DNA of 64,000 nucleotides from Undaria pinnatifida. Taxonomy: Eukaryota; Sar; Phaeophyceae; Laminariales; Alariaceae. The notes below the pieces were generated by a model, which was not told the DNA's origin, ran no database searches, and was given only the letters and a program-made list of their open reading frames with translations. The stretch is from positions 1,162,001 to 1,226,000 of the forward strand of contig JABAKD010000027.1 in NCBI GenBank assembly GCA_012845835.1, read 5' to 3'. This document shows positions 1-51,978 of the stretch, one piece after another. The translations under genes were made by a program, and so were the position numbers. Numbering within the stretch: position 1 is the stretch's first letter; each line of letters opens with the position of its first letter.

Positions 1-3000
1 CGTCTCGCATGGCACGCGTCGGGCACCTACTCGAAGGTGAGGTGATGTCGAAAGACAAGGCGTTTAGAAAAGGGACGCTGTTTGATTGTATTTGGTTGTG
101 TACGACGCCCCTCGAAGACTAGGACGAGGGGCGCTGCTTGAATGTGCGCAACGCTCCTTTTGAGCCCGTCATAGGTCACCATGGCTCCTACCGTGTGCAG
201 GTGTGGATGCATGCTTGGCGGCAAATGTAACGCCAAGTTGAGACAATTTTTTTCCGCCAGCCAATCATCGTATTCTTTTGCAGCGGCTTGTTGTGCGTCA
301 ACCAACCATAGTAAATACAAGCAGCCCTTTGCATTGGGTTGGGCGTGCCCCATTCTTAAAGCTTATGTGTTGGCTAAGGCTATCGTTATCCTTCGTAGCC
401 GGCCAATCAACGCAGAGTGCGCGCTGGCATTTTTCACGGCCGTGTGCTGACCGTTGACTTGTTGTTCTGTGATTCCAGCAGTATTTCCTAGTGTAGATCC
501 TACTGCGTGGCCAACGGTATTGCCAACTGTATGGTCTACTATTAATATATGGCTTACTGTACTTTTCCACTGATATAGCTCTTTATTGCCACTACGTTGG
601 CTGCTATTTGCTCTACTAGGTGGCTTACTGTATTTTCCTGCTGATGTACCTCTTTGTTGTCGCTGTATTGCGATTCGTACGATACTGTATACAATACTGC
701 ATTGCCTACTTGTGCCACCTACTGGCTTAACTGTATTTTGTACTGCTACTGTATTGCGAATTTGTCTTTTAGGTGGACGGCACAGGCGGGTCGAACGGTG
801 CTTGCATGCGCATGTCCCCTGAGAAGGACTGGGGGGCCAACGCGGGCCTCGACGTAGGCAGGGATTTTATTGAAGGTGCAAAACCGTAAACATAGCATAC
901 CAGTAGCTATGAACAGGTGTTCACCGCTCACGAAGAGGTTACCGGCAGGTGGTGAATAGGTGGTCGATAGGTGACCAATAGGTGACCAATAGGTTGGCAG
1001 CAGGTCGTCAATATGTCGCCAATACGTGACCAATAGGTGGCCAGCAGGTCGACAGTACGTTGACCATAGGTAGTCAATTGGTGGCCAATAGTTGGCCAAC
1101 TGGTCGCCAATACGTCGCCAGTAGGTGTACTTTCAATGCGTCCTGTACGGGAAACTAGTACGGTATTAAGTATTAATTGCTGCCGGCGCAACCAGATCCG
1201 ACAGGACGAATGCGAGATTTTGTACTATACCTGGTATGTGGGAGCCGGGTATTTGCTATCCGCCGGAGTTAGGGTTGAGATACGCATCACTTGCTCAGCA
1301 GGTAGGCGGACACGGAGCACTTTTTCCCGTCGTTCAATTCCTACCGCGTTAGTGTGCCCACGAACAATGGCGGTGACTGTCAGGTTGACTACGTGATGTA
1401 CCTGATACTGCTGTATGTATGATCGTTGTGTCAGGCTTAAAGGAGGATCTATTTGATGCACCTGATATGTGCGCATGTTTATTTTGTCAGACGACTTGCA
1501 GACTTATCAAATAGGGCGACCTATAATGGCATGCCAGTACATAACATGAACATGTACCGTATGATCTATGTGGCCTATATTGTATGATCTATATGCTGAC
1601 TCCCTGATATGTAGGTGATCGTGGTTCGGTTGTTGTTTGTTGTGCTCGATTTCCGTGCCACAGCGATTAAGGCGAAGTACCCTTCTGTCTCTTACGCGGA
1701 CCTGTGGACACTCGCCGGCGCCACCGCGATCAAGCACATGGGCGGGCCTCAAGTAGCGTGGTCATCTGGCAGGACTGACTCCGACAAGCCTACCACTGTC
1801 CCTGACGGTGAGTGTGAGGTCCAACAGGAGGGGGACGGGGATGTGCTCATTTCATGCATGGCCGTAGTGGCGGGGGGGAGAGGGAAGGAACGGTAGGGGG
1901 GGGGAGGATGGGCGGGTTACGGTATTTCTTTTTTCGGGGTACTGTTTATACTGTTATCCCTTGTAAGGTCCACGTATAGCTACCAAATACATCGATTGCG
2001 GTCTTCCCAAGCGTCAATTAGGAGGCGCGTTCAGCAGTACGAGTACCTCCATGCTCCGCGCGTAAAACATTACAGCTCGTTACGTTGAAGTTCGGACACA
2101 TCCCCTACCCCAGTGGTAGTAGCCCAGGTGACTTCGTGGGGCCAGTTCTACAAGGAAGCGATGGGCAGAAAATTCAACACATACGGTACCGGTATTGGTA
2201 CCCTTTTCCGGTACTTGTTGTTACCTTCTATTGTAACCTGGTGTTGGTGCCGTGCCGTTTGTGGTTATCATACCTTGTGTCGGTTCCGCCTTCCGGACGC
2301 CGACCAGGGAACGATCGGCAGAACCATCCAGCATTTATGGTATCTTCTGTCGGTAAAATGCTTTCGGTATGTGTTTTACCATTAACGTGTACCTATTCAT
2401 GCCTTTTCGTTGATATCATACTTTTTGTCGGCTCCTTGTGTCTGTGCCACCTTTAGGCCGCCTCCCGGACGCCGACAAGGGAACGATCGGCGGAACGATC
2501 CAGCACATTCGCGACATATTCGGCCGCATGGGCTTCAACGATCGCGAGATGGTGGCGCTTATTGGGGCCCACGCCGTTGGCCGGTGCCACACCGATGCTT
2601 CCGGTACGCAATTCTCGCACTCAGGATTTACAACTGTTAACGCTATTACTTGTACCGAGTTGTGGTGTGGTGTAGGAAGATACCGATAAAGAGAAGCTGA
2701 AACACGACGATAAGGACGAAGATGAACATTCGAATGCCACACGAAGTTGATTTGTAGCAGTGTTGTGATGATGTGATGTGGATGTGATGCGGCGCGAAAT
2801 GTTGCGATGTAATGTGTATGTCGTGTGATGTAATTTACTGTAAAGTGGCTGCGAGTTTCTACTTTTGACCGCGCCAACGAAACGGACCCTGTTGGAGTTG
2901 CCTGGAACGTCCGCCTGCCACCAATGCGCACAGGTTGATAGTTGGCGGCAGTTACAGTTATCCTGCGCGAGTTCCCAGCGACAGCTATGCTGTCTTGGAT

Positions 3001-5202
3001 GCGATGTTGTGTGTGTGATGGCTTGAACAGGGTGCTGGGGGCCGGTGACTTGACGTGACGCGATGTCGCGTCGTGTCATGTAAATATAAAGTGATGCGGT
3101 TATTGTGATGACCGTGTCATGTGAGGTAATGGGATGGTTGTGTCGTCTGATGTGATGTGATGCGAGTCAATGTGATGCTGTGTGTTGCCTTGAGCAGGGT
3201 ACTGGGGGCCGTGGACGAACGCGGAATCTACATTTTCCAACGAGTATTTCCGTCTTCTCGTAGAAGAGAAGTGGACGATCAAGACCACCCATGAGGGCAA
3301 GAAGTGAGATATTTTGCCACGTAGCCCTAGCCTTGTAGCTGTATTCTACCACTTTGTGTTCTAGCTTTAGACTGATTCTTAGCTCTTGCCTTGTATTGTC
3401 GCTCCACGGTCTTAGCTCTAGCTTTGTAGTTCTAGCCTTGAGCTCTCGCGTTAAATATGCACCAGCCTTGTAGGTCTAGACTATCTAGCCTTAAAGCTCT
3501 ATCCTTGTAGCTCTAAGAACCAGTAGCTCTTTGAGCCCGGTAGCTCTAGTTTATTTTGTAGCGTTAGCTTTTGTAGCTCTAGCCTTTTGTAGTTCTACGA
3601 GCCTTGCAGTATAAGCCTCCTACTGTAGCTCTACGACCCTATAGTGTCTACTGGTAGCTGCTTTACCCTGTAGTTTCAGACGCTTTTACGGACTACCAAT
3701 GTTTCAGACGCCTTTACGGTGCGTGTTGCGTTGGAGTACACCGTCCGTGCCGGACTGAGTCTTGTTGCAGCCTTTTCAGCACTTTATGGCCGAGCCTTGT
3801 TGTAGTCTTGGTCTATGCGACGCTACTTCTGGGCCGTAACCCGATGTTTGTGAACTGTTAACCTGTGAAATATTATTGATACGTGGCAGTACGTTGAAGC
3901 TACCATACCTCCTGTTGAACTTGTTGCCATTCTGCATTGTGCATTACGGTGCTGTGGGCAACTCAACACCACATGTAGACAGTATTACAACTCGACAACA
4001 TGTACGCCTCTACAACTATTGGCACATTGTAACAGGTGGACCGGTCCGGAACAGTTCGAAGACCCGAGCGGCCAGCTGATGATGCTGCACGCCGACTTGG
4101 CCCTCGTCTGGGACAAAGGTCAGTACACGCGTTGTATCGTACGAATACATGTATATGTTTTTGTTTGTCTATGTTACCCATGATGGGGGACAAGGGTCTG
4201 TTTGTGACTAGTAGTGTATTATGCTGCACGAACAGCTACGAAAAACGGGAATTTGTGTCGATGTTCGGCGTTCAATTGCTCTGCACTCAACCATGATGAA
4301 GTTTTGCACCCCTTGGCAGTACGTGATGTCGCGTCTATGGCCTTTGCCTATGACATCCTCGACCCTTAAGGGCATGCGCGGAGCCGCAGGAGAGCGTCAG
4401 CCTGCCGCGGCGAAGCCCCCCTTGTATTGATTACGATGTTTCGTTTTGTTGTGCTGCCGCCTTCCCTTCCGGCCTTGTTACTGACAGTACGACTGCTGTA
4501 ATCATGCTGTGCGGGTGCGTGCCATACTGGGTCATGGAAGTTGGGTTATTTTACGAGTACTGTCGTGGAAGTTGGATACCTTACTCTCCTGTTCTTCGAT
4601 CTTGAACACGACGTTTGGCCCTTTCTCTGCTGAACCCACGTTTAGGGCGGGACAACAAGTAGTAGCTTGTTCGTTTCGTCTGGTGTTGGTTTGATGACCC
4701 TTGATGGCTTGTTTACTTATGGGATTGTTCGCTCGATTGCTTGCCCCCTTGTGCGCTTGATGGCCTGTTCTCTCGATGACGCTTGTTCGCTTGTTCGCTT
4801 GTTCGCTCGATGACTCCATATCTTGGTGGGGTGTTCGCGTGCTGCCTTGATCGCTTGTTCCTTCGATCCAGTGTTCGCTCTATTGCTTTATGGCTTGCTC
4901 GTTCGTTCCCTTAGTTCGCTCGGTCACGTGTTCGCTTGATGTGCTTCTATTGATAACGCCTGTTCCCCGTGATTATGCTGGTTCGTTTGTCCGCATGTTC
5001 GCTTTCGGTTTTTGCAGAGTTCCGCAAGGTGGTGGAGGAGTACGTGGCCGACGAGGACCTCTTCTTCAAGGACTTCGCCGCCGCTTTCGCGAAGCTGATC
5101 TCTCTCGGCACCCCGAACAAACCCGCGGGGGTGGGTGGCGGAGGTGGCATCATGGGGCTTATTAACTCGCTCCTCGCCATGTTTGGCTTGGGGGGCAAGT
5201 AA
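1..5202 (+). CDS. Class I haem peroxidase (ascorbate / cytochrome c peroxidase type), 5' partial
   Basis: Coding exons: <1-36, 773-875, 1664-1807, 2457-2603, 3198-3303, 4036-4118, 5018-5202. They sum to 804 nt (267 codons plus TAA), open throughout, all introns GT-AG. The window starts inside the gene at the distal haem motif [12 protein letters not shown] (catalytic Arg, Trp and His). [20 protein letters not shown] follows, then [39 protein letters not shown], the proximal-His motif [26 protein letters not shown] (the Trp of class I peroxidases), HADLALVWD and [21 protein letters not shown]. Class I enzymes reduce H2O2 using ascorbate or cytochrome c; the sequence alone does not settle the donor. 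The last exon adds a tail absent from short cytosolic APX: a Gly-rich linker, then [18 protein letters not shown], mildly hydrophobic and perhaps membrane-associating (inference). N-terminal targeting cannot be judged because the 5' end lies outside the window. Confidence 0.93.
925..1135. repeat. Degenerate 12-bp tandem repeat in peroxidase intron
   Basis: Units resembling AGGTGACCAATA / AGGTGGCCAATA recur with an irregular period near 12 bp inside the intron between exons 773-875 and 1664-1807. No coding function is seen. Confidence 0.6.
2146..2334 (+). repeat. Decayed copies of the 5' edge of peroxidase exon 2457-2603
   Basis: About 165 bp upstream of the true exon, 2287-2333 repeats its first ~45 bases (TTCCGGACGCCGACCAGGGA against TCCCGGACGCCGACAAGGGA). 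It also repeats part of the preceding intron (CTTGTGTCGGTTCC against CTTGTGTCTGTGCC), but the acceptor AG is missing. A third, weaker copy lies at about 2146-2185. The copies are out of frame or lack splice sites, so they are read as intronic tandem-duplication relics. Confidence 0.7.
3015..3052 (+). repeat. Copy of the intron/exon boundary of peroxidase exon 3198-3303
   Basis: The string CTTGAACAGGGTGCTGGGGG matches the real acceptor region CTTGAGCAGGGTACTGGGGG, 167 bp upstream, and keeps the AG. Past GGGCCG the copy diverges and loses the reading frame, so the downstream site is the functional exon start. Confidence 0.65.
3320..3670. repeat. Degenerate TAGCTCTAGCCTTG tandem repeat
   Basis: Irregular repeats built from TAGCTCTA and GCCTTGTAG fill the middle of the intron between exons 3198-3303 and 4036-4118. 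No ORF or splice signal of note is seen. Confidence 0.55.
4690..4965. repeat. Degenerate TTGTTCGCTCGATG tandem repeat
   Basis: Repeats of CGCTTGTTCGCTCGATGNC with a variable period near 17-25 bp lie in the last peroxidase intron, just upstream of the final exon. Confidence 0.55.
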
Positions 5203-8200: not shown

Positions 8201-8419
8201 CCGCACAAGGCGTTCATTGAAGCCCGGGCTCTCATTTTTGGCATCGAAACCAGTGCCCTAGGCTTCCTCGGAGGAAAAACTAAGGTCGGTTCGCGCAAGC
8301 TTCCATCCGGCTCGAAGGAGTGTGCAACAGGGCCGGGTGATTACCGGCAAAGGCAGGCGGCAGGTGGAGGCTGGAAGGCCGGGGGGAGGAAAGGGGGTGA
8401 TAAGCTTGGTTGGGACGGT
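5203..8419. other. Intergenic region between the peroxidase and TSG101 genes
   Basis: No gene is recognised. It contains a degenerate repeat around TGATCAAAATGTG / GTGTCTGATC (about 6128-6420), a short TAC triplet run near 6790, and a segment at about 7215-7375 related to the arms of the inverted-repeat element at 60.7-62.7 kb. Near 7155 is the motif CCCCATCCGCCGGAGGA, repeated near 53893 and, inverted and diverged, near 11340. The last few hundred bases before 8420 are probably promoter and 5' UTR of the next gene; no clear TATA box is seen. Confidence 0.5.
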
Positions 8420-11400
8420 ATGGCCCAATTGCCGGTTTCGGTCGACCTGAACCAACTTCTCAGCCAGTTCACCATCTACCAGGTTAGGACGGGGGGATGG
8501 GGATGAGGAGAGGGGGGGGGTTAGCTTGAGCAGTATCTATGACTGGGCAAGGGAGTGTTGGCGGCGCTGCTGAGGTAGCGGTGTGGGGTGGCTAGGTTAT
8601 ACTACTGCTGCTTGAACGTTCTGCGTGCCGCTCGGCTGTGCACGACGGCCAAATTGTACGGAAATATAATAATCGTATTACAATAATATTAATAAAAAAC
8701 GGTTCTTATATTTTAGTACATTGTCTTATGAGTTTTCGACGAGAGGCGGTCTCATCAGCTTTTCCTTCCGCTGCTGGGTGTACTTTTCGTACCAGTAGTA
8801 TCGATGCCATCACAAGAAACTGTTTGGTACGTCGAGCAAAGAGTAAAGGTGAAGGTTGGCCAGAAGGAGGGGGGGAGGTAAGGGGATTTTAAGGGAGGCG
8901 GCGGCAGGGTGGGGAATAAAATGATATCTGGAAGGGTGGGGAATAATATGATATCAGGTACCTGGTCAGTCTGACATGTTACGTGTCAGGTGTGTCGAGA
9001 GGCCCCAGGTCTACGAGTAGCGACCGAAAACGCGAAAAGTGCGGTGTCATCTGTCATCAATGAATAGCAGAGCTTCCTCCAGCACCATTATGCTGCCCTG
9101 CGTGCGTTGTGGCGTGGCGGTGTCGTTCATCTTGCTTCCGTTGCACTTTGACCGCGTCCCCTGTGTAATCTGTACATATGAGCTGCTGTTCGAAATAGCA
9201 GGTAACTATTATTAGTCCGTACCCCATTTTCCGGGCTTGTCGGTGTTGCCGATATTGCACACATCGCATGCCGGATACTTTTTTAGACCCGTCTCCCGTC
9301 AGAACTCTGAAATCCCATACTCGTAGCAGTTAGCAAGAGGGTACTTGTACTGAGCGAGTAGTGAGATATATGCACCAGTATGGACCTGGGACATCGTAGG
9401 CTGACTCCCGATTTCACTTTTATATGTTTGTGGTGGAGGCATGAATTGCGTCAGCTGCGATGTATGCGTGTACCACCTTAGGTTTGTGTTTTTTCCCTGG
9501 GGTATTCCTCAGCTCCAGAGTGACTGGAGCCTGTCACAATTATAATGCGAGTTAATGTGAGAACAACCAACAACAGGTACTAGGTACTGTACACGGATGA
9601 TCTGCGGTATGGCTGGGATGGCCCTATGATACTTGTATTTGTCCCGCAGTTTTTTTGGGTAGTAGTGACGTGTCCAAGATAGAAGTGGGATCACGACCCA
9701 CCGACGGTTTTGACTACGAATCTTAGTAGCCGACTTGACAGTGAGAACACTCTGCTTACGCAGAGAGAAAATATTCTTCAACCGTGAGAACACTGCTTAC
9801 GCAGAGAGAAGTGGGATCACGACCCACCGACGGTTTTGTCTACGAATCTTAGTATTAATAGATCTGACGTCTATCTATTTCATAAATTTATTACTAATAA
9901 ATAATACTGCTGTAGTTTCCCCTATACTGCTCTATCGTATGTATGGGGAGGTGATTTATTTTGTTTTTTCTCTGCTTTAATATCGGGAGGAGTACGAATA
10001 CTGGACAGAGTATTACTAGTTATCTAATATGTTACCATTAATACGGCATTCGAGAGTAAAAGTCGGCTATTAATAGCTCAAAACTCCCCATCTAAAGTAA
10101 CAATACCATTACAATGGAGAATAACAAAACATACATGTATATTTTAAAAAATAGGACCCCTCCCAATAAAACCTCACCCACATATACTAGTAGACGATTA
10201 TAAGTACTTGTACCAACAACGCGGCTTTCATAGATGAGTATTGTAACCGGTCGCCCCGGTGGCGTATCAGGTTATCCTCGAGCCTGGTATAGGTCAGTTT
10301 CGTGAGTTCGAGCCCCGCCGAGTGCATACTCGTATAAATTCGTTGGGACTTTTTCTTGTGCACAAATTGACTTGCGGAAAGCGCGAGAGCGTGAGTTAGC
10401 AACATTCGATGAACAATCGACGAGCAGTGGGATTGCTGAACCCTACGATGCGCGATAAAAATTGAAGGCAAGAACCGGGGAGGAGAAGGGATGACACCTG
10501 TGACCACGGCTTGTCCAGAAGCTGGAAAGTGAAAGTGTGCAAAAAAAAAAAAAAAAAAAAAAAAAATTGACCTGGTTTTGACCCGAAATTCGTCGAACTC
10601 ACAGCTGACGTCCTGAAAATATTTTTATATAATATCAGCACTAGCGTTTTCAGTACTTTTTTTTTTTTTTTTTTCTCTTACACTTTTACTTTCCAGCTTC
10701 TGGACAAGCCGTGGTCACAGGTGTCGTCCCTTCTTCCCCCCGGTTCTTGCCTTCAACTTTTATCGCGCATAGGGTTCAGCAAATCCCACTGCTCGTCGAT
10801 TTTTCATCGAGTGTTGCTAACTCACGCTCTCGCGTTTTCCGCAAGTCAATTTGTGCACAAGAAAAAGGCCCAACGAATTTATACGAGTATGCACTCGGCG
10901 GGGCTCGAGCTCACGAAACTGACCTATACCAGGCTCGAGGATAACCTGATACCATACGCTACCGGGGCGACTGGCTTTAGTATGTTCAGTACCAGGTACT
11001 CGAGTTGGACCATGATGGGGTACCCGATTTAAGAGCCTCTCGGAAAAAGGCTGTATTACCGCTGTTATCTCCTTACGTACCACTCCTGTCTCAGGTTGGG
11101 GATCATGTGTCGCAGGTCTTAGTGCTTAGTGCAGGCGTCACAAGGCGCGACAAGACGATTTTACGGCTTTTCTCTTATTAATACCTACCTGGTACAGCAG
11201 TTGTAGTATTTTAGACGCTCTTAAACCGGATGTCCTACGACTCTGTACTCACACTCGAGTGAGACCGCAAGTTGATTGTACCCTGCACACATGCACTTCG
11301 CGCGGCATCTTTATTTTTTACTTTTCTTTTTTTCCGCCCTCCGACGGATGGGGCAAATCAAGCTTAAGCTCACCACACTTCCACGCATGTTCATGCACGT

Positions 11401-12459: not shown

Positions 12460-12494
<35 letters not shown>

Positions 12495-31800: not shown

Positions 31801-31836
31801 GTCAGACGACTCAACATCTAAGGTGATGGTCCTACC
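28830..31836 (-). CDS. UBA52: Ubiquitin-like / ribosomal protein eL40 fusion, divergent ubiquitin part, first exon not found
   Basis: Minus-strand exons in transcript order: 31836-31761, 30807-30722, 29469-29366, 28923-28830. They sum to 360 nt (119 residues plus TAG) with matching phases. The eL40 part is well conserved: [20 protein letters not shown], then [20 protein letters not shown] and [10 protein letters not shown], keeping the four zinc-site Cys. The upstream half aligns with ubiquitin residues 10-76 with no gap but matches only about 46 of 67 positions. It has K11R, K29I, K33R, I44V, F45L, G47A, R72S and R74H; K27, K48, K63, R42 and the terminal GG remain. In the family, the fusion is cut after GG to give ubiquitin and the 60S subunit protein. 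The exon for residues 1-9 was not found intact. Orthology to UBA52 rests on the eL40 half. Confidence 0.9.
29533..29960 (-). repeat. Tandem relics of the 5' edge of eL40-fusion exon 29469-29366 and its intron
   Basis: The true exon edge (+ strand GGACGTGGACTGTGGACTCC) recurs at about 29651-29690 (GGATGTGGACGGTGGACTTC) and 29751-29790 (CGCCGTGGACGGTGGACTCC). The flanking intron motif (GAGGCGTTATCATAGAGGGG) recurs near 29533, 29610, 29843 and 29918. All copies lie upstream in the transcript, inside the intron. Confidence 0.7.
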
Positions 31837-37500: not shown

Positions 37501-40500
37501 AGTGGGTTGGGTTGTGTTGGGTTGTGTTGGGTTGCATTGGGTTAGGTTGGATCTTTCATGCTTCCCACGTTTGCACACAGCTGACGACAGTTCCAAATAT
37601 CGCGCAGCGCGAGTTTCTAACGAGAGCTGCAGTATAATCGTGTATTCTTTGCTGTTGTAGGTATTATATTATGTGTCAGGATAATGCACGCTGCACGGTG
37701 GGCTACTACGGTACCTGTATATGCTCTTTCCTTCCAGTGCAATAGCTTGAGCGGCGCTGGTACTATGATACATATTTCATTGGCTCTTTTGATGGAGTCC
37801 CGCTTACGTCACCAGTTTCAGTGAGATTGCGTACGCTTTTTTTCCTATTTCAGCAGGTGGAGTGCATTTTTTGTACTGTACACACAATACCATGTGCCTA
37901 CCGTACCGCTAACCGCACCATAACGTACGGTATGTTACCTTACCCATACCCTGACCACCCGCCGTACCTTACCCGTCCGTCGCGTCCTTGTATCTCTCCT
38001 TTTGTTTTGTGACTTGTTTTCAGGTCGATGCTTAAAATGTTGCTGGACCCCATGGGTGGCATTGTCATCACCAACGACGGCAACTGCATCCTCCGCGAGG
38101 TAACAAGTCATCTAAACCATGAAGAATGTGTTAATGATGCCGGTATGATGCTACCCTATCCTTGTTATACACTTGGGAGCAACACGCGAACGTTGGTGGT
38201 GATGTCGTTCAGGCTTTTTATTCGCTGCATCCTCGGCGAGGTAACACAATATCTATCGTGCTAATGGTGTTTTATGATTTTTCAAGGGTCCCATTGAAGG
38301 TGCAGTTCCCTTCGAATCCCGGGAAGGTCGAAAGTAAAAAGGGAAAATGAAAGAAAAAATAAGTACGTGGCCACTACTATCAGACTATTAGTAGGCACCG
38401 CACTAGTAAAAGTAACGCCGACCAGCGCACACAACTTTTTAGTTTAGTCTAGTTGTATTTGCGGCACTCTCAATACTTATGGTGCTGTGAGGTGGCTGAC
38501 TAGAGCAATAAGTCGTCGACTAGTTACTCCCTGCTAGTTGGCTAGGTATTACAGTGTATTTTATGTATCGCAATTGTTTGCATTTTAAAGTTTGTTGCAC
38601 GCAGTGTCGGAGTTGTGCGTGTTTGTATCCGACCGTCGAGGTTGTGGCTGGACGCGTGGTTTTTAGTGGTATAGACTACCAGGTATGTCAGCTACTGCAG
38701 TTGACTTTTGCTTCGCCGCGAAGCTGATAACTAGCAGGTAGCCGTTAAGAAAAAAGTCGCAGCCCTTCTGTTATGCGTGGCTTGCGCCGCTATGTGCTAT
38801 TTATATGGACCGCATGAATCCTGGCATTGTTTTGATGCACGATTGCCACCGCTTATTGTAGCACCTGCTATGCCTTGTATGCGCCGCTGTGTGCTATTGA
38901 TATGAGCTTTGTGGCATCATACTAAGTTTTATGGTGTGTGGTGCGATACGGTGTTTAGGTTGACGTGGCTCACCCCGCGGCGAAGAGCATGATCGAGCTC
39001 AGCAGGGCCCAGGACGAAGAGGTCGGGGATGGCACCACGTCCGTCATCATTCTCAGTAAGCATGCTTAACCCCCTTGATTTTGTCCAGTTTGCTCTATAA
39101 GCTGTAGTGTAGTCTAGTAGTAGTCTTGTCTTTTATCTAGTCTAGTTCAGTTTAGTCAACGTGCCGCGGTTGGTCGGTAGGTCGACTGTTGGTTCTTTGT
39201 TGGCGGGTGTGTTGATTGATTGGCTGGTTGGCTGGTTAGCTAATTGTTGACTGGTTGGTCGGATGTGTGGTTGGTAGATAGCCGGTTGGTTGATTGGTTG
39301 GTTGTTAGTTGTTACTAATACGGTTGGCCGAGCACTACTGCCATCAATAGCGGCATCGGTCGATCGATCAACTTGGCTAGGTCATTGATTGGTTGGTGTG
39401 TTTCCTGCTCTTTCGACCAACCTCTACGGCCTGTGGCATCTCAAAATCATAATTACCCTTACACATAGCCCATTGGACGGCGGCCATGTGTTTGTGCTAT
39501 ATTTACCCGATCCTATTGACTGCCTTCCTTCTCGCCCTCTGATCCCCCCTACCTTGCGTTGCCTTGCCGTGCCCCCTTTGGCCTTGCCGCGTACCTGCTT
39601 TTGGTATCTGTTTTCTGGATTTTTCCCAGCCGGGGAGATGCTGGCAGTCGCGGAACCCATCCTCACGAGAAACGTGCACCCGACACAGGTGCGCAAACAT
39701 CTTGCCTACCCTCACGGCAAGATTCGTTATGCAACGGTTCCAGTACTGGTGCTATTAATATGAGTATGTTTGCAGTTGTGCCTGCGGGGTGAATATGTAC
39801 TGCAATATACGCAATTGCATGCAAGCAACAAATGAGGCGTTTATCTGATGCTTGGTTTCCAACGGTTATAGGTTCAAATCGTTACTAGTGAGATGCGGCG
39901 TTTTGAGCTAAAAGGAGACGGTGTGAGGTGTGTGTGATTGGTGTGTGTGATTGGTGTGTGTGATTGGTGTGTGTGATTGGTGTGTGTGATTGGTGTGTGT
40001 GATTGGTGTGTGTGATTGGTGTGTGTTATTGGTGTGTGTTATTGGTGTGTGTGATTGGTGTGTGTGATTGGTGTGTGTGATTGGTGTGTGTGATTGGTGT
40101 GTGTGATTGGTGTGTGTATTGGTATGATATGGTGGTATAGTACACCTGCTGTTTCGTCGTAGGTCGTAGGGAATGCTATGGCATGGTATAATATGGTATG
40201 GTGTGGTGTGGTACGTGGTGTGGTATGATATGGCGTGGTATGGTGTGGTATGATGCGGTATGACATCGTATGGTATGGTAGGACCTGGTACGTCGTAGTA
40301 GGGAGTGGTATGGCATGGTAAATATTGTATGGTATGGTATGGTATGGTATGGTATGTTATTTTATGGTACGGTAGTAGATGGCGTCAACACTGGGGTTCG
40401 AGTGTTTAGGTGTTGCGGGTGGCGCTGCGGGAAATGCAACGGGCACAATTGATTCACCGAACTACAGTATAGGAATGTCTAGGGTGGGGTGAGGTGGGAT

Positions 40501-43500
40501 GAGATGGGCAGGGGGGTGGAGTGGGGTGGAGCGGCGCGGGGTGGCATGGGGTGGAGTGGGTCGAGGGCAGTGGAAGGAAACCCGGCCAACGGACCGCTCG
40601 ATCGCGCGATCGCACCGCCAGAATCGGACCAGTTGAGGGATTCGAAACCGCCGGTGGGCGCACACGGTTCATTGCGTGGCCAATGTAAAGGCATTATGCA
40701 GGCGTGCTCTATCGAAGGTGTATTGCATCGCATACTGGTAGATACCTCACTTTGTTATGTGCGAATCAGCGGATGTTAACCTGTGGGAATTGACCTTTGG
40801 CGATCCCCTGTGTTTGCCAGATTGTGGCGGGGTACGCTCGCGCGTTGCAGACAGCTTTGGATGCGTGCGACGCTCTTGCGGAGACGATCGACATCGACAA
40901 CGGGCCGCAGTTAAAGAAACTTGTGGACGCTGCGGTTGGGACCAAGTTTTCCTTCAGGTATGACAGTATTATCACTCATGCTACTCGAACACTAATGACG
41001 TATCTGGTACTCGGTACTGTTGTATAAATTGATTGAGTGTTGTAATACTGGTAAACTAGCATGGGACATGCTTGTTTTAGATGGGGCGAGAAGTTGGTGT
41101 CGATGGCCATCGGCGCGGCGAAACATGGTTGCGATAGACCAACATGGTTGCAATGAACATACCATGGTTGGAATAGCAGAGCGTGGCTGGAATAAACACA
41201 TGCTTGCAATAAAATGCTGTAGCATAGTTGCTATCCGCAGACGTGGTTGCGGTAGACCATGCTACAATAGGAGTACACCAACCATTTCTGTTCCTAAAGC
41301 TCCTCGCTCGCGGGGCCTTTTGCCCTTTCATTTACCCCTTTCGTTTACCCCTTTAATCGAGTGTTTGCGTTAAAATAGTTCACTCAACATTCTTCCATCA
41401 TGCTAGAAAAAGGCCAGATTCACTCCGGCATGCGTTTGGTTGGGTTTGCGGTGAACGAATCGCAGAAAAGGCGTACACGACCTCCCTATCACAAGCGGGG
41501 AGTGGGGAGGCAACATCAAATTTTGAATTTAGACATGGTGCGGTAGCACCTACTAATAGACTCACCGACACGGGCAGGCCCAGCACAACACCATCAGACA
41601 AACAGCAGCACAGCAGCAGCAAAAGAAAGCTGCAGCAGCAGCGGCGGGGCGGAGGTGGCGGTGGCGATGGCCCCGCCAGATGAGTTGCGGCACAGCAGCT
41701 CGGCCTGGCTCGATCACCACCCACGATCACCACAACAACAGAACAGCCAGTTTTTTATTACTTTTTAGAAACAAACGCAGGAGACACCGACCGCAGCCGC
41801 AGCACAACAGCCGCCGCACAACAGAGGCAGCAGCAACAGCAGCAGCAGCAGCGGCGGCGGTGGCCGTGCGGCGCGGGTGGCGGTGGCGGTGGAGGCTTCG
41901 GCGACAGCGTTGTGGTATAGCGACGGTCGTTGACAAAATCAGCACCGAATACGACATCACGCAGCAGCAGCAGAGAACGAGGTAACATCGTACAAAGCGC
42001 GGTAGCGCTGGCTCACTAGCACCTACCCCTGAGGTTGCGCGTACGCGCCATGCTTCCCAGCTACCCTTTGGTGCCTCCGCATCAAGGTTGGGCTGTGTCT
42101 ACCGCTGCCAAGCACAGCGCACCGCGAGCAGTGTCTGCTGCGTGCTGCCGTGTGGGTTGTGCCCTCTTGCCCTCTGATTGTTGCGCCGTTGTGCCTGTAG
42201 AGCGACGGTGTTGAGCTCGGTATTTGTAGGCCAATCGTATGAGCTGGTCGACATTGATGGAAGTTCACTCTAAATCGTTCACTCAAATCGGAATTTTCAT
42301 GCCGTTTTGGGGCAAATTCTTCCTTCAAGGCTCGCTCGGCGATTTTTTTTTTTGGAATTTTAGATTGAACTATTTTTTCCGCAAGCACTCGAATTTACAC
42401 CTTTAATTTACGCCTCACGCAAAAACACTGACGTTATTAATGGGAAGAATAACATCGCCACCCGATTAAACGAGTCCAGGATCTACTGTAAGTATACACT
42501 GAATGAATAGACATATCGTATTTAGGTAGTTGCCTAGTTTAGGGACCCCGTCGATCATTTTTTTTTTTGTAACAAAATGCCACCCCTATGGGAGCAGGTG
42601 TCGGTTTTCAATTATGCAATGGTTGCAGTGATGCGATGGTCGTTGATTGCACAATGTTGTTGCAGGCGCGGAGGGAAGTTGGTGCCGATGGCCATTGACG
42701 CGGTGAAGCGTGGTTGCAATAATCAAACATGGTTGCAAACAACTTGGGATATGTTAACATGGTTGCAATGTACTATCATGGTCGGAATGAACTAACATGG
42801 TCGCAATATACTGATACTATCGCGGTTGGTATATGTTTATAAGAGTGATGATTGTACGTTGTTGTTTTAGGTGGGGCGAAAAGCTGGTGTCGATGGCCAT
42901 CGACGCGGTGAAGCGCGTTCGAACCGTAGTGGATGGGCGAGTGGAGGTGGACGTGAAGCGCTACGCCAGGGTGGAGAAGATACCCGGGGGGGAAATGGAG
43001 GACTCCATGGTGAGACAAAGAGCGAGAGAGAGAGTGAGAGAAGAAATGAAGGACTGGAATATTGAGGGAGAGCGAGGGAACGAGAGAGACGGAGAGAGGG
43101 GATGGTGAAACTGTGTGTAAGAAGGGAGAATAAGGGAAAGATAGTGAGCGTGTCAATTGTTGAGACGGACTGAGCGAGCGAGAGATTAACAGTCAGGAGA
43201 GAGAAAGGGGGTGGGGGGGAGAGAAAGGGCGGGGAAATGTTAAATGGAACTCGGGAGGTGAAGCGTGAGGTCTAAGAGAGAATGGGAGATAGAGGGGTGT
43301 GGAGAGAACAAGGGGGGAGGGGGGGGGCAAGGAGTGTACACCGAGGGAGAGGGGTGTACATGGGGCTGGACAACGCAAGGTCCCATTCTTTCTTCTTTTC
43401 GACTCCCGAGGGAATCAATGGTACCAGCCGCGAGCGCGACTTTTGCGAGACTGGTCAACCGAGCTGCAACCCAACGAAATACGTGTACTTGTAGAGCGTC

Positions 43501-46500
43501 TTGCCAACGGCAAGCGAACGAACTCGTTATGTACGTATATCAATAGCAAAATCGAGTAGTATCATGAGCCTGACATGCAAGCACATGCCCGGGAAGGACT
43601 ACCGCAGTAATAGTTGTTTTTTTTGCTGTTTTTGTCTTCGACCAATTTATCGCCATGCCCTCGTGTGTGGTTACACGACGGGCCCCGTTCGTTTGGACGA
43701 GGTTGAATAAAGTGTCCCAGGAAATGTATTAGGGAATGTATTAGGAACTGTATTAGGAAATGTATTAGGAAATGTATTAGGAAACGTGTTAGGAAATGTA
43801 TTAGGAAGCACCCTCCGACCACAGTATTGTATTGTATTTTAGTATTGTACCATGGTATTGTATTTTAGTATTGTGTTAATAGCATAGCATGGACGACTAC
43901 ATGCTACATGCGTGCTGTAAAGATAATGAAGTAGTGACACCGATAAACGAAACATGAAATGGATACATATACCTGGTAGGTCGTTTTTTTTCGTTCTGCA
44001 TAATAAAAAAAACGGGGAGGACAGGAGATAGAGGGCGGAAACGGGGAGGTTCGATACGGTATATCCAAAACGTCGACACCGGTCTACTTGATATGTGATA
44101 TTGCGATATATTGAAAGTTTCGATACGATATTCAACACTAGCCTGGTGTGGCTTCATTGCGTAATCTGCTGCTGTTGGTTTCTTCGTCCGTCGCCCGTTC
44201 CGTACCTCTTTGTGATTTTTTTTTGTCAGGTCCTGGATGGCGTCATGTTCAACAAGGATGTAACCCACTCCAAGATGAGGCGAAAGATCGAGAACCCTCG
44301 CGTGCTGCTGCTCGACTGCCCACTTGAATACAAGAAGGGAGAGGTAAGTGACATTACCGTCATTCCTATCATCCATACCTGTAGCTTCAAGCAGGGAGCT
44401 GCTTGTGACATTATTAACCATCCTTAGTTCTTCCCTTCGTGCTGCGCCATGCTCTTCCGTGATGTTTTGAGACCGAGATATTCTAGGACGGTGATTGAGG
44501 ATGCCGTGATGTTGCCAACGCATATGTCGTCACGAGGTGGCGCCCTCTTTTTGTTTGTACATGGTGGCGGCGTTTTCAACTAGAACTCCGTGGTGTGTGG
44601 CATGTCAATAGCAGTGCCTCTTGGCCCTACTGCTGTACTGCTGAACAAGGAGGGAAAATGTGGCTACGACTAAATAAGTATTTTTTCCTGTTTTGGTCTC
44701 CTATGTGCTTGTTTTGTGATATCTCGTGCATACGTAGAGCCAGACAAACGTTGAGGTGACGAAGGAGGAGGACTGGAACACCCTGCTCAGGATGGAGGAG
44801 GAGTACATAGAGAACATCTGCGCGCAGATCGTGGCTTTCCACCCGGACATCGTCATCACCGAGAAGGGCGTCAGCGACCTCGCACAGCACTACTTCATGA
44901 AGGCCGACATCACGGTAAGCTAGAATTTTGATAGAATAGCTTATCCTACAGTATCGTATCATACTTAGAAGTATCATGTGTATACGAGTAGCATACCATA
45001 TGTAGCATGAGCGGCATTAATAGTTCCAACAACTTGATGAACATCATTCTATTCAACCCCACCTTCATCAACCATCATATCAACCAATCGCCAACACCAA
45101 CAGCTTCATCATGTCAACACAATCACCTACACCAACTCCCATCACCGACAGCAACCATGGTCAACCCCACCACTACTGTCAACTTGAACACCAACACCAA
45201 TACCAACACCACCAAGTTCAATAACTTGAGCACAATCAAATCTACCACCATGAACAATACCAACATCGACAATACCAACCCGATCAACATCACCCCCTTC
45301 TACACCGCTTCCACCAACATCAGCAGCCTCAACCTCAACGCCACCACCAGCATCAACAATACCAACCCTAGCATCACTCCCGTCAACATCAACATCAACA
45401 TCAACATCAACACCAACACCAACATTAACAAAGCCAATAACTCGATGCATGTGATCCCCCCTTTACCAGGCGTTCCGCAGGCTCCGCAAGACGGACAACA
45501 ACCGGATTGCTAGGGCCGTGGGGGCCACGGTCGTGACCCGACCCGACGAGATTCAGGAATCCGACATCGGAACCGGCTGCGGGTTGTTCGAGGTCCGCAA
45601 GATCGGAGACGAGTGAGTGCCTCTTTAAGGAAGCTTTCGTACGTCGCTATCGCTTTCTTCAACGTTTTCGTGTTTCATTAAATTTATTTTGTCTAATACC
45701 CCAGGTATTAGTAATTCCAACGGTGTAATAGACATACATTGGTTTCATAGAATGTACTTGGAAAAACGCCTTCGTGAGTATTCAATTCCTGATATAGGAT
45801 TGCCGTAACGCTCTGATCTAACGGTTTCATAAATAGCGCCGCCTCCTGCTCCTCTCACGTGGCAACCCCCTTGATGGCTTTGATTGCTGCAGCACTGCAG
45901 CGGCAAGCTCTCGGCTGACCAGGCATTCGCAGAGCCCACCTTTATCCTTCGCGAGGTCGTACCCCTGCGTATTACACGCAGCTTCCGAACATGAGTTTCG
46001 AACAACCAATCTCACAGACTTTGCCTGTTACCGGTGGTGGGATATGGTACCGTCCGTTTTTGATAGTCGATCAGGATCGAAGCGCGTGCACAGTCATCAT
46101 CGTTCCAGTTTGTGGTTGTGATGGCGATTATGGTTGCTGTGATCTTGGTCGTGATTGCGAGTGTGGATGTGAATGTCCATGTGTTCGCTCCTCCGCGCTG
46201 TTCCCGCGGGAATGTTTGGACAATACCAGGTACTTTTCGTTCTTGGAGCAGTGCAAGGACGCCAAGGCGTGCACCGTCCTGCTCAGGGGCGGCAGCAAGG
46301 ACGTTCTCAACGAGGTCGAGCGAAACCTGGCTGACGCCATGCAGGTTCGTTGAAACCCCGCAATCATACAATGTACGAGGTTCTCCCTCGGAATGTTGTT
46401 GGCTTGAAGCCTGGGGGTGTCGCAAGTCGCAAGTTGAAAAGGGAGACAAACTAGAGAAACATCAAGAAGCCACCGCGCAAATAATCCGGTAAGTAACACT

Positions 46501-49500
46501 GACCAATCCAAACGAGTGTACCTGGTATAGTGTGATGTACCTGGTATGTAGTACTGATTCAGAGTCGATCCTTGATTTTCACTGTTTTGAACCGACGTGA
46601 ACCACTACCCAATTGGTCTAACTGTATGATACGGTAGTAGTCTGTTAATAGTATGCAAGTGTCGTTGTGACGCATTCAAGATGCACCCTACTCGTTAACC
46701 TGCGAACTGTGCAACTATCGCTTACGTCTGGTCAGGTTACTGCTCGTGGACTCATGCATCGTACTGAGAAGAATCTTGTACTCTCCAACGTGGTACTGGT
46801 ATTGTATGATATTGTACTAAGAGCTGAATGCTCAATATACCTGGCATTTAATGTTATAAGCTATCATGTGTATTGTTGTACACCTGATGTCTGATATTTG
46901 CCGTGTGCTACTGTTCGATATATTTGACGATGTATGCTGCTTGCTACATGTGTGTGGTACACCTGATATTATCCAATGCTTTCAAATATATTTGCGGTGT
47001 ATTGTTGTACTTGTTTTATTGTTGTTGATTGTTGCCAGGTGGTGCGTAACGTGGTGTTCGAGCCACGCCTTCTGCCCGGTGGTGGTGCCACGGAGATGGC
47101 CGTGTCCCAGGCCCTGTCTAAGAAGGCACAGGTGAGCATTGCTCGTACAGACACGAACCACCTCTATTGGCCGTGTCGTACCGTACCATGCCGTACCGTG
47201 TCATTCCATACCGGGTTGTATTTCATCGTATCAGATAATATATCATGGTGTCCCATGCCTTGTTTAAGAAGGCGCAGGTGGCCGTTGCTTATTTTAACGC
47301 GTTAAAACCGCTCCCGCTCTCGGTATTATAGGCAGCCGTTTTTATACCGTGATACTATGCCATGTCCTTTTATGTATTCAGACCCTGCCTCAGAAGTCAC
47401 GAGGGGGTTTTGCTCCGGCAGACGCGTTTCGCCGCTATTCAATGATACCGCTCTTGGTTGGCGGTAGGCAGACATTAACATACCGTGTTATGCCGTACCA
47501 TGTCGTATTATATGTATGATGGTGTCCCAGGCCTCGTCTAAGAAGACACGGTGGGTACAGTTCCCACAGACGCGAATCGTCGTTATTAGACCACTCTTGA
47601 TAGGCAGATCCTATCATGCTGTGTCATATTATACCGTGCCATGTCGTGTTCTATGTAATCGTCTTTCAGGCCCTGTCTAAGAAGGCACCGATGGCCATTG
47701 CTCCGACAAACGCGTTTCGACGCTACCGCTATCGGTTGCGGTAGGCACCCTCTTTCACACCATGTCGTACCGTACCGTACCGTACTGTACCGTACCGTAC
47801 CGTGCCATGCCTTAATACATATAATATGACCGTGCCCCAGACTCTGTCCAAGAGGGCGCAGGTGGGTGTTGCTCTGACAGACGTGATTCGCCGCTGTTAG
47901 ATCGCTCTTGGTTTATTGGGCAGCCGCTGTCATACCATGTCATGCTATGCCATGTCATTTTTTTTGTTGTAATGACAATTCATCCCAATTCTTATCAATT
48001 CATGTAACTTCACGTACCTGGTACATTGGAGTGAGTACGTACCACTGCTTTGTCTCACCTCGCGCCTGCCAAAATTTCCCATGTTTACCTACGTGGTCCT
48101 GTATGGCTGTATGGCTGCATGGCTGTATGGCTGTATGGCTGTATGGCTGTATCGGCGGGCAAGCTATCTCCAGGGTCCAAAGTTAGATTTTGTGTTTATT
48201 CGTCTTTTTATCGGTCGGCTTATCAACACTTATGTTCGGAGCGGTTGGATCCTGGGCGAACGTCGTTATCAAATGTCGCTTAGCTGTCATGCTGTCACAG
48301 CATTGCTTGTGGTATACCGGCTATTGTGTAAATTGTTGACATTTATCTAATTGTCTCTGTGTCTAATTGCTAATTGCCTTTGCCGAATTGTACACAAAGT
48401 GCTACAGCGATTGTATAGCGCACTGGTGTACCGATAGTAAAACGGCCAGGTGTAAGACTTTTCGGGAGGTAGGACCAGGTAAATCGTTTTGTCTCGAAGC
48501 AGAATACTCTTGTAATTTGTACGGGATCACTTTGTGCAGTATTAGTAAGTATTAGTAAGTATTAGTAAGCAGTAGTATTAGAGGATATTACCATGGTATA
48601 GATACGACCACCAAAATTGTCGTGTCAAGGGGTGGTCTTGCACTGGGTACACGACTGTAACATTTACCCGGTGTCGTGCTAACCGCCGGTGTTTCTCGGT
48701 CTGACGGTCTCTCTGTGGTGTGGGGATTTCACAGGAAGTGGAAGGAGTGCAGCAGTGGGCATTCAAGGCCGCCGCCTCTGCGCTGGAAGTCATCCCGAGA
48801 ACGCTCGCGCAAAACTGCGGGACCAACGTAGTACGAGTGCTCACCCAACTCAGGGTGAGGAGTAGACTAATAATGTACCTGGCATATCGTATGTTAGGCC
48901 TGAATACATTTCGTAGTAGCTGCTCCGCGGATGGCATGCCTGTCTTGCTCCCGCCTGAAACTCCGTTCGTCATTGCGCCCATCCATCCATCCATCCATCT
49001 ACCCATCCATCCATCCATCCATCCATCCATGTATCCGTCTATACAGCTATCCGTCTCTATCGTTTCCATTGCTCCCGTCCTGTCAAGCGACTGCGGCGTT
49101 GCACGAGGTACACGCCCAATGCTGAATGCAGCAAAAAAAAAGAGTTGAATACATACCAGGTATTGTAGTTGTTATGCCTGATACGTCCTTCGCGTCCGTG
49201 GACTTCTGATCACTGTACAATTTCAGCCACGATTGTGATTGGATCACGACGTGTGTAGACACAGCGCCAGAGCACGGCACCCCTGTGTCGACGCTGCAAT
49301 GCCTCAAGGTTGTACACAGACTGTACGTAGGGCCACAACGCTGTGCATACGATTAGGCGGTGTACTTGCCTGCTGAGCCAATTCAAGTTTTAACCGCTTT
49401 AGAGCCGACTGCACGTGTTTTGGGACATTCTACTTGAGATTAGTGCGCGATCGTTTTTGCAATTGTAAACAGCTCTACAAGCAGCTGCATAGAAGGTGGG

Positions 49501-51978
49501 AGTCCCTTTTGCTGGCTCCAAACGACTGCCGAAAAGCTGGTGTTTGGTGGGGCATACCTCAAAACGTCCTTGTGCTGTGTTGGCTCTTCGTGTTGTTTTC
49601 CCCCGTGTATGACAGGGTATACCACCCGCGGTTGTATATCACGCCCCAGGAGTATACCACCCGGGTGATGCAGTATTTTAATTATAAATAAAAAAACGAT
49701 TCATGACCCGGGTACGTTATATACCACCCCCCCCTGCGGTACCATGGCTTATAATCGGTAAAACAGCCCCAATGTACCGATATCTGCTCCCCCGAAATGC
49801 AGGACGGGCACGGCAACAACCTTTCTACCGGTCTTCTTTGGTGGTCGATTTCAATCTTGCACGTCGACCCAGACCAACATGATTCTATGCTTGATCCTGA
49901 CCCTAACCCCATAAAATTGACAATTATTTGACAAATTAAAAAATAAATTTGGTAATGATTTGAGGGGCTCGAGGTCGGTAGAGGCAGTCGCGCGAATCCT
50001 TTCTAAATGCTGATACTGTGGCAGTCCTTTACTGATGCCACCCGCCTAGTTTGCCATCTCGCTCGGTAATGCATGTTGTAAAATTCGAAACGACCACCCA
50101 GTTTATCATCGGGGGGCGTTGTATACCGCACCCCTGGGGTATTTTTTTTTCTTTTTTTTCTTTTTTTTTTGCACACTTTCACTTTCCAGCTTCTGGACAA
50201 GCCGTGGTCACAGGTGTTGTCCCTTCTCCCCCCCGGTTCTTGCCTTCAATTTTTATCGCGCATAGGGTTCAGCAATCCCACTGCTCGTCGATTGTTCATC
50301 GAGTGTTGCTAACTCACGCTCTCGCGCTTTCCGCAAGTCAATTTGTCCACAAGAAAAAGTCCCAACGAATTTATACGAGTATGCACTCGGCGGGGCTCGA
50401 ACTCACGAAACTGACCTTTACCAGGCTCGAGGATAACCTGATACGCCACCGGGGCGACCGATGTATACACCACACCAGGTGGTAAGTTTTTCCGATCCCC
50501 AAATGTTACCACCGGGGGTGTGGTGTACATCGTCATGTACGGTAGGCGAAGCACGCGAAAGAAGCAAAGTGCGCGTGAGGCATACCCGACATAACCTCCG
50601 TGTGCTGTGTTGACTCTACGTGATGTAGGAAACCAAGGGACTGTAGAAATGATGGTGTGTTTGGTGCATACCTGACAACGCACTATGGTTGTTGTGTTGG
50701 GTCGAGGTAATGTTTTTTGGCGAAGCACGCGAACGAATGACCGTGCGCGTGGGGCATACCTGACATGGCGTTATTACGCGTTGTTGACTCTACTAGGTGT
50801 GATATTTCTAGGCGAAGTACCCAAACGAGGCGAAGTGCGCGTGGGGCACATTACATTTTAGATTATTGTGCTGTGTTGCCTCTATCTACTGCCTGATGTT
50901 TTTAGGCAAAGCACGCAAACGAGGCGAAGTGCACGTGGGGCATCGACGGGACGACAGGCGTGATGACCGACATGAAGGACCTCGGCATCTGGGAGCCATA
51001 CACGGTCAAGACCCAGACCTACAAGACGGCGGTCGAGGTCAGCGTTCATGGATCTATATATCCATTACCATTACCTGGTAACGTTTTATGACCGATCTAT
51101 ACCGTAAGATATGGTATACATCTATTACCGTATTACGACCCATCTATTGATCTACTTCCTTTTTATGACCGACCTATGGATGTACTACCGCCGTGTAACC
51201 GATCTACGAAGCATAGCTTTTATGACCGACCTGTACATCTTAATATGTATTTCGGTGCTGTGACCTATCTATGGATTTTTCCCCGTACGATGACCGATCT
51301 ACTGATCTACCGATATTTTGGCAATACTAGGTATGCGTCTTGGCATTTTCATGCTGTACCGACACGTGTGCGGATTGTCCTGGTTGTTTTTTTCTCGATG
51401 GCCGTTGTACACCGCGCTTGCATTTGTGGAGATAAGAGTCGTGGTCCAACCGCGAAGGCATCTAATCGACTTGAACCGACTGTTCCTTGATCGAGTTATA
51501 TCCTGCAGACAAAAAACACCAAACAACGCGTGCTTTGGAGCTTCAAGATACAGTGGCTTATCGGCCAAAATGTTTCGGGCGTCGTCGTCGATGTTCACCC
51601 GTTCAGGGCCATCTCGAATCATTTTTTACTTGCGATGGGAGCCACAAACTCGATTCTGCGCTTGACAAGATGGTTCCGCGCTACTTTCCTGAACACTCAA
51701 CCTAGAACACGCGCACTTGCATAACGTACAGACGATGAGATACCTGGTACCGGATTTTTTTTTCCTGGTCAAGAAAAGCTATTCCCCTGCTATTTATCGA
51801 GAATTCTGACGCCTTTTGATACCTTGCCAGAATGTCCCCTAACGGGTATAATGTGGCGGTACTGATTTCTTACCCCCATCCTCTCCCGTGTTACCCGTCA
51901 CCCTTCCAGGCGGCTTGCATGATCCTTCGCATAGATGACATCGTCTCCGGGATCAAGCACGGACAAAAACAAGGGTGA
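34554..51978 (+). CDS. CCT3: CCT3, gamma subunit of the TRiC/CCT chaperonin
   Basis: Exons: 34554-34678, 38024-38099, 38959-39055, 39630-39688, 40821-40957, 42871-43009, 44230-44343, 44738-44914, 45470-45612, 46230-46344, 47039-47131, 48735-48854, 50906-51037, 51910-51978. They total 1596 nt, 531 residues plus TGA, all GT-AG and in phase. The protein aligns end to end with CCT gamma: [20 protein letters not shown], the ATP-site segments [15 protein letters not shown] and [161 protein letters not shown] folds actin, tubulin and other proteins in the cytosol by ATP-driven cycles. The acidic/Gln-rich tail of the animal protein is absent. Several introns hold decayed copies of exon edges. The start has a purine at -3 and matches the family N-terminus. 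Confidence 0.97.
38212..38256 (+). repeat. Copy of the 3' edge of CCT3 exon 38024-38099
   Basis: CGCTGCATCCTCGGCGAGGTAACA mirrors the real end ACTGCATCCTCCGCGAGGTAACA about 140 bp upstream and keeps the GT donor context. It lies in the following intron and would be a decoy donor only. Confidence 0.7.
38760..38945. repeat. Intron tandem duplication upstream of CCT3 exon 38959
   Basis: GCGCCGCTATGTGCTATTTA and GCGCCGCTGTGTGCTATTGA, about 100 bp apart, mark a two-copy unit. Confidence 0.6.
39918..40125. repeat. 13-bp minisatellite (TGGTGTGTGTGAT)
   Basis: About 15 near-perfect units of TGGTGTGTGTGAT in the CCT3 intron between 39688 and 40821. TATGG/GTATG-rich repeats follow (about 40190-40375). 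Confidence 0.9.
41068..41130 (+). repeat. Decoy copy of the 5' edge of CCT3 exon 42871-43009 (first)
   Basis: CTTGTTTTAGATGGGGCGAG, then AAGTTGGTGTCGATGGCCAT, mirrors the real TTGTTTTAGGTGGGGCGAAA/AGCTGGTGTCGATGGCCAT. The AG acceptor is kept; after GGCGCGGCGAA it runs into CATGGTTGCAATA repeats. It lies 1.8 kb upstream of the functional exon. Confidence 0.8.
42652..42712 (+). repeat. Decoy copy of the 5' edge of CCT3 exon 42871-43009 (second)
   Basis: TTGTTGCAGGCGCGGAGGGA, then AGTTGGTGCCGATGGCCATT and GACGCGGTGAAGCG, repeats the exon start 206 bp upstream of the true one, with AG kept. It then diverges to GTGGTTGCAATAATC. CATGGTTGCAAT repeats flank it (about 42590-42800). Confidence 0.82.
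45008..45445. repeat. CATCAA/CACCAA-rich low-complexity intron
   Basis: Nearly G-free plus strand with CATCAACACCAA-type trinucleotide-phased repeats between CCT3 exons 44738-44914 and 45470-45612. It yields a 168-codon open frame of Asn/Thr/Ile that is an artefact. Confidence 0.8.
47085..47905 (+). repeat. Array of about six copies of the 3' edge of CCT3 exon 11
   Basis: The functional edge GCCCTGTCTAAGAAGGCACAG|GTGAGC ends at 47131. Decayed copies have their junctions near 47277 (TTGTTTAAGAAGGCGCAG|GTGG), 47402, 47550 (CTCGTCTAAGAAGACACG|GTGG), 47690 (CCTGTCTAAGAAGGCACCGAT) and 47861 (CTGTCCAAGAGGGCGCAG|GTGG). Spacing is 125-171 bp. Shared intron sequence follows each (TTGCTCNGACAGACGCG...CGCCGCTATT). 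Two or three keep a GT after CAG and could act as alternative donors. Confidence 0.88.
48100..48158. repeat. 8-bp minisatellite (TGTATGGC)
   Basis: About seven units of TGTATGGC, one TGCATGGC variant, in the CCT3 intron 47132-48734. Confidence 0.9.
48978..49034. repeat. (ATCC)n microsatellite
   Basis: CCATCCATCCATC tetramers over about 55 bp in the CCT3 intron 48855-50905. Confidence 0.9.
49604..50542. mobile_element. Non-autonomous DNA element (element 3), carrying a SINE
   Basis: About 940 bp. Left end CGTGTATGACAGGGTATACC; right end reverse complement CCGTACATGACGATGTACAC. The ends are related to each other and to elements 1 and 2 (CCGTAnnTGAC...CACCC). TA is present on the right (50543-50544) but not clearly on the left. 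No transposase ORF is seen. It sits in the CCT3 exon-13 decoy array and holds SINE copy 3. Confidence 0.65.
50142..50460 (-). mobile_element. tRNA-derived SINE, copy 3
   Basis: Minus orientation: poly-T-rich tract 50142-50170, body, B box GTTCGAGCC and A box TGGCGTATCAG intact on the minus strand, ending at 50460. Very similar to copy 1 at 10249-10566. Flanks GTATACCGCACCCC (left) and GTATACACCACACC (right) may be a decayed target-site duplication. It is nested in element 3 in a CCT3 intron. Confidence 0.85.

Follow-up and report, generated by a model that had tools for sequence, protein, structure and literature searches.

The analyzed window is a 64,000-nucleotide stretch of the Undaria pinnatifida genome (contig JABAKD010000027.1, positions 1,162,001 to 1,226,000) containing four genes, whose models were rebuilt from reading frame, splice signals, and homology. 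The peroxidase and TSG101 models, of 6 and 7 exons respectively, are partial. A ubiquitin-eL40 (Ub-eL40) fusion on the minus strand (28830-34040) comprises 5 exons; its ubiquitin part, read from the joined exons, differs at many positions from canonical ubiquitin. The fourth gene, CCT3, comprises 14 exons, and the protein assembled from the window was 100% identical to U. pinnatifida protein P0001 over 489 aa. The 28 introns of the four genes have a mean length of 1,054 bp, and the 77 introns of the seven other CCT genes that we modeled have a mean length of 1,057 bp. The corresponding figures in PMC4421812 are 1,057 bp for Saccharina and 703 bp for Ectocarpus.

Copies of exon edges in the window

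The original prediction held that, in all four genes, on both strands and on both sides of the exons, introns contain decayed copies of the adjoining exon edge, and it proposed self-alignment of introns with their flanking exons, in comparison with shuffled introns, as a check. For every exon edge, a 40-bp query was aligned to the intron next to it, and the match was scored against dinucleotide shuffles of the query. Copies were detected for 7/56 edges at p < 1e-3 and for 10/56 at p < 0.01, whereas at p < 1e-3 none were detected with introns of other genes (0/400), opposite exon ends (0/46), or inverted edges (0/56). Thus, the exon-edge copies are real and exceed chance. The features are as follows.

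34554-51978, plus strand: CCT3 gene, 14 exons and 13 introns (gene model, in agreement with P0001)
2457-2603, plus strand: peroxidase exon 3, the 3′ splice-site edge of which is the copy source (gene model)
2199-2333, plus strand: decayed copy of the intron end and start of peroxidase exon 3, matching 2377-2505 (self-BLAST; p = 2e-8)
~2148-2190, plus strand: older fragment of a copy of the peroxidase exon 3 edge (p = 1.1e-5 within an 81-bp stretch)
3019-3049, plus strand: peroxidase exon 4 (3198-3303), copy of its 3′ splice-site edge (p = 0.005 for exon only; p = 1.1e-5 for the junction-spanning query in a 91-bp stretch)
19343-19419, plus strand: TSG101 exon 18701-18843, copy of its 5′ splice-site edge with GT retained (edge test, realignment)
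20149-20224, plus strand: TSG101 exon 19549-19833, copy of its 5′ splice-site edge with GT retained (self-BLAST, edge test)
29643-29743, minus strand: Ub-eL40 exon 4 (29366-29469), copy of its 3′ splice-site edge with AG retained (self-BLAST, edge test)
~29749-29775, minus strand: further copy of the Ub-eL40 exon 4 edge (p = 4.7e-5 within a 216-bp stretch)
38225-38246, plus strand: CCT3 exon 2 (38024-38099), short copy of its 5′ splice-site edge with GT retained (p = 0.002; p = 1.2e-5 within a 111-bp stretch)
41061-41122, plus strand: CCT3 exon 6 (42871-43009), first copy of its 3′ splice-site edge with AG retained, a AACATGGTTGCAATAG-type array coming next (self-BLAST, edge test)
42644-42710, plus strand: CCT3 exon 6, second copy of its 3′ splice-site edge with AG retained (self-BLAST, edge test)
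47248-47880 (limits approximate), plus strand: CCT3 exon 11 (47039-47131), four copies of its 5′ splice-site edge with adjoining intron, GT in three of the four (self-BLAST, edge test)
50546-50848 (limits approximate), plus strand: CCT3 exon 13 (50906-51037), three copies of its 3′ splice-site edge, AG in two of the three (self-BLAST, edge test)

The edge tests supported the occurrence of copies in all four genes, on both strands and on both exon sides. Every predicted locus was confirmed, except that the last CCT3 range was not supported at its 49510 end (p = 0.27). Two loci that were weak with the exon-only query, 3015-3052 (p = 0.005) and 38212-38256 (p = 0.002), became clear with a junction-spanning query (p of ~1e-5), these latter values applying to a prechosen stretch of ~90 to 110 bp rather than to the whole intron. 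The tenth edge detected at p < 0.01, the CCT3 donor at 40957 (p = 0.007), was absent from the predicted list, and its match may be due to chance. Tandem Repeats Finder (TRF) detected only two of the copy loci (29671-29827 and 50771-50942), the remainder probably being too decayed for this program. Copy extents obtained by x-drop extension are overestimates, and neighboring copies overlap; free realignment mostly aligned the sequences to themselves and was used for the TSG101 copy at 19343-19419 alone.

The window also contains repeats of other types. An inverted repeat with arms of 86% identity lies at 10247-10974, and a stretch of CCT3 intron 12 (50142-50460) is ~92 to 97% identical to its arms, a recent mobile element insertion being likely. 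A recent duplication has left two tandem copies (95% identity) of a 410-bp unit in the C-rich DNA at 59512-60347. The TSG101 introns contain a CGTTAG array of ~530 bp (24049-24577) and a 149-bp perfect array of TTGGG (20865-21013).

Recurrence in other genes and structure of the copies

The seven other CCT genes were modeled with a purpose-written splice-aware protein aligner. Applied to CCT3 with three relatives, the aligner exactly recovered 12, 13, and 12 of the 14 exons, one relative also yielding three short exon calls at or near decoy copies. For the seven paralogs, 13 very short or unsupported exon calls were removed before counting, and 5/154 intron edges were left out by eye as mis-modeled; an excluded CCT8 donor edge had copies (p = 5e-7 and 3e-4), so that its omission lowered the count. 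Edge copies were present at 19/149 edges at p < 1e-3, with 0/600 cross-gene, 0/126 far-end, and 1/149 inverted matches. Ras-type genes gave 7/56 at the same threshold (1/300 cross-gene, 0/54 far ends, 1/56 inverted) for 26 donor and 30 acceptor edges of 30 exons fetched out of the 66 hits listed; the splice sites of these exons are less certain, since they derive from single-exon prediction around profile hits, and the set stands outside the tandem-repeat-masked pool described below. In two HSP60 genes, for which the guide protein was partly missing and exon calls of <30 bp were left out, copies in tandem-repeat-masked introns (2/46 edges) did not exceed these genes' own background (17/228).

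All of the 13 genes modeled exon by exon, some of them partially, carried one or more edge copies at p < 1e-3. The copies are local, since cross-gene matches amounted to 1/1300 in the pooled controls at this threshold. Direct and often serial duplication leaving splice-site decoys in unrelated genes, as originally proposed, was borne out by the window, CCT, and Ras sets. The description of the introns as filled with such copies was right about their presence and overstated their extent, since a significant edge copy was found in 24/103 introns of the first 11 genes. Among the introns, some AG/GT sites in CCT8, CCT2, CCT6, and HSP60 were taken by the aligner as zero-length exons, and one such CCT8 site, which resembles a recursive splice site, sits within a decoy copy.

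Unmasked introns contained 48 distinct copies at 28/251 edges. Several edges carry arrays of 3 to 7 copies, the edge of intron 6 in the CCT1 model having seven. The orientation was mostly direct (33/261 edges versus 2/261 inverted at p < 1e-3), the latter value leading us to reject a contribution of inverted templating to the edge copies. Only one end of the exon was copied, pooled far exon ends giving 0/226. The 12 bp located past the splice dinucleotide were at least 50% identical in 45/48 copies versus 6% of random pairs, the copies being fitted with gaps and the random pairs without, and this conservation of the intron side indicates that the duplicated unit crosses the junction, as the original prediction had stated. 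Identity within the 48 copies was 0.83 to 0.84 on the exon side and 0.63 to 0.70 on the intron side, a contrast that is partly built in because the exon side was the search query. In the masked set, the identity of 25 edge copies over the matched portion of the 40-bp query was 76 to 95%.

The splice dinucleotide was retained in 35/48 copies. GT was present in 20/30 5′ copies, for 20.8 expected from exon-side identity, and AG in 15/18 3′ copies, for 12.9 expected. Retention is thus close to neutral, and the decoys look neither purged nor preserved.

Local duplication away from the junctions

Points chosen at random in the introns and intergenic regions of the window had local copies at about the same rate as exon edges (23/301 and 28/295, respectively, at p < 1e-3), which lends no support to the proposal that junctions are special targets. 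The background was of the same order in the CCT genes (18/171) and at the Ras loci (34/240) at this threshold, and it varied widely by gene, from 0/59 to 21/152. In a larger unmasked background sample, 203/1741 points had direct and 42/1741 inverted copies at p < 1e-3; the preference for the direct orientation is strong in the background, not absolute.

Comparison of edges with intron points in the tandem-repeat-masked pool gave the following results.

p < 0.01: edges 34/251, points 155/1285; odds ratio (OR) 1.14, p = 0.53
p < 1e-3: edges 27/251, points 101/1285; OR 1.41 (0.90-2.21), p = 0.13
p < 1e-4: edges 23/251, points 71/1285; OR 1.72 (1.06-2.82), p = 0.042
p < 1e-5: edges 19/251, points 51/1285; OR 1.98 (1.15-3.42), p = 0.019

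These values bear on the alternative that survives best, although we regard it as unlikely, namely, that splice junctions are preferred for duplication, owing, for example, to transcription, R-loops, or AG|GT microhomology, and that introns grow mainly by serial duplication of junctions. The excess at p < 1e-5, which was stronger in the first 11 genes alone (19/205 edges versus 44/1057 points; OR 2.35, p = 0.004), and the arrays present at several edges are in its favor, but the excess was not significant at the two more permissive thresholds and was not seen in the two HSP60 genes, where only 2 of the 46 edges had a copy. Moreover, in simulations of one-sided versus two-sided decay, an exon frozen by selection was by itself sufficient to generate detection ratios of 1.42, 2.07, and 2.22, depending on the age range, and the excess observed at strict cutoffs (OR of 1.7 to 2.0) matches this effect. 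Edge copies had a median identity of 0.87 and background copies one of 0.81; this difference points in the same direction, although two of the three simulated age ranges produced none. A modest true junction preference could also account for the enrichment seen at the p < 1e-4 and p < 1e-5 thresholds. Intron lengths lent no support to the lengthening of introns by the copies, also part of the original prediction, the median being 846 bp for edges that have a copy and 852.5 bp for those that have none.

Selection for a function of the copies, as alternative exons or as regulated decoy splice sites, is in our view highly unlikely. GT or AG is kept in most copies, and a purpose-written ab initio gene finder called exon-edge-like stretches exons in CCT6 and CCT8, where they stood out as unaligned insertions. 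This retention is near the neutral expectation, however, and only one exon end is copied. An insertion encoded by a decoy was sought in the Undaria protein P0001 (CCT3) and in the relatives P0241 (CCT8, 98% identical) and P0121 (CCT6, 93%), and none was found in these three proteins; the source contigs of P0241 and P0121 (~2 kb) look like transcripts since their reading frames are uninterrupted. As a separate observation on CCT8 (G000 C13, 3476000-3493000), the annotated Undaria protein P0249 (415 aa) appears to extend beyond an exon's donor site into intron sequence and to terminate early, its close relative P0241 having 545 aa.

False tandem duplications made by the assembler have a negligible probability, since we found no point in support of them, the pattern recurs across several contigs, assemblers do not invent decay to 76 to 95% identity, and the Undaria assembly is described in PMC7058681 as based on PacBio reads (~120X) plus Hi-C. 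Chance similarity due to low complexity or biased composition deserves equally little credence: short tandem arrays are abundant in the introns (TRF arrays of period ≤30 make up 9.6% of intron DNA), but 25/205 edges remained at p < 1e-3 after dinucleotide shuffling and tandem-repeat masking, and the cross-gene control was nearly empty.

Proposed duplication, tolerance, and decay of junction copies

The copies are best explained, with a probability that we estimate at roughly 0.78, by pervasive short local tandem duplication that is tolerated, and more visible, at exon edges. Short noncoding stretches, with units that copy distances place very roughly at 70 to 300 bp, would be duplicated nearby in direct orientation, with replication slippage, unequal exchange, or error-prone end joining as the most likely route. 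A duplication at an exon edge would survive if the unit spans a single splice junction, since the exon body would then still have one undamaged junction, and the additional exon fragment, together with the GT or AG that it carries, would end up within the intron and be spliced out. Decoys of this type may be tolerated because a fragment with a single splice site cannot be defined as an exon. The intron copies would subsequently decay neutrally, the exon original being held by selection, so that exon-edge duplications would remain recognizable up to ~2 times as often as duplications between two intron stretches.

Steady neutral duplication does not predict one feature of the data, the lack of near-identical edge copies. 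Identity of at least 0.96 was found for 0/27 edge copies versus 15/98 background pairs (Fisher p = 0.04), and the simulated share of edge copies at this level for frozen exons was ~12 to 18%. In a smaller pool, identity limits of 0.90, 0.93, 0.96, and 0.99 gave Fisher p values of 0.60, 0.066, 0.037, and 0.33, respectively, 0.96 being the sole limit repeated in the larger pool. With small numbers and four limits examined, the deficit is only a hint that fresh junction duplicates are selected against, or it is due to chance. It is conceivable, if doubtful, that splicing filters junction duplications, fresh full-strength decoys harming splice-site choice and being removed so that only decayed copies persist.

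Tandem exon duplication, which gives rise to mutually exclusive exons, also copies exon sequence into the neighboring intron. Mutually exclusive exons require a whole exon with both splice sites, unlike the kelp copies, for which far ends were never matched in the window, CCT, or Ras sets. Parallels also exist for local duplication itself. In flies and primates, short insertions are mostly local tandem duplications, according to PMC2374710, and direct local duplication is thus the main source of inserted DNA, as in kelp; those insertions are short and recent, some from the reverse strand, whereas the kelp copies, which were measured at exon edges, have a length of ~30 bp or more and are old and decayed. 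PMC3188502 similarly describes Drosophila regulatory DNA as shaped by local duplication, its authors having seen no such evidence in yeast. Pervasive duplication of neighboring sequence visible in functional elements is common to both systems, the Drosophila case involving pairs of binding sites up to ~50 bp apart, unlike the exon-intron junctions of kelp.

A comparable mutation is that of the potato RdRp gene, in which a tandem duplication across an intron-exon boundary made a new intron, as set out, along with the Rogers AGGT model, in PMC4974935. The unit likewise crosses the boundary and carries inherited splice signals; in potato an intron was gained, whereas in kelp the extra copy stays inside an existing intron and the junction at the exon body is used. 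The kelp copies look like the same kind of mutation with another outcome. A new intron of the Rogers type was not found in the coding sequence of CCT3, the gene considered, where the model with intronic copies matches P0001. Relatives of P0001 were sought in viral and genome contig sets outside the Undaria genome, and none were found. A search of one open-access library found no printed account of the exon-edge copy pattern in brown algae, nor of the edge frequency, the matched noncoding background, or the use of exons as frozen references.

Exon edges offer such frozen references, and their siblings in introns accordingly measure the rate of local duplication more cleanly than pairs of noncoding sequences that both decay. 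Decoys can also mislead gene prediction, as illustrated by the simple finder that took exon-edge-like stretches for exons of CCT6 and CCT8. If fresh decoys are truly absent, their absence would provide a direct readout of selection on splice-site competition. If splicing does filter junction duplications, the pool of decoys would record the splice-site competition tolerated by a long-intron, exon-defining spliceosome, and it would constitute a standing raw material for intron gain at about 1/9 of exon edges.
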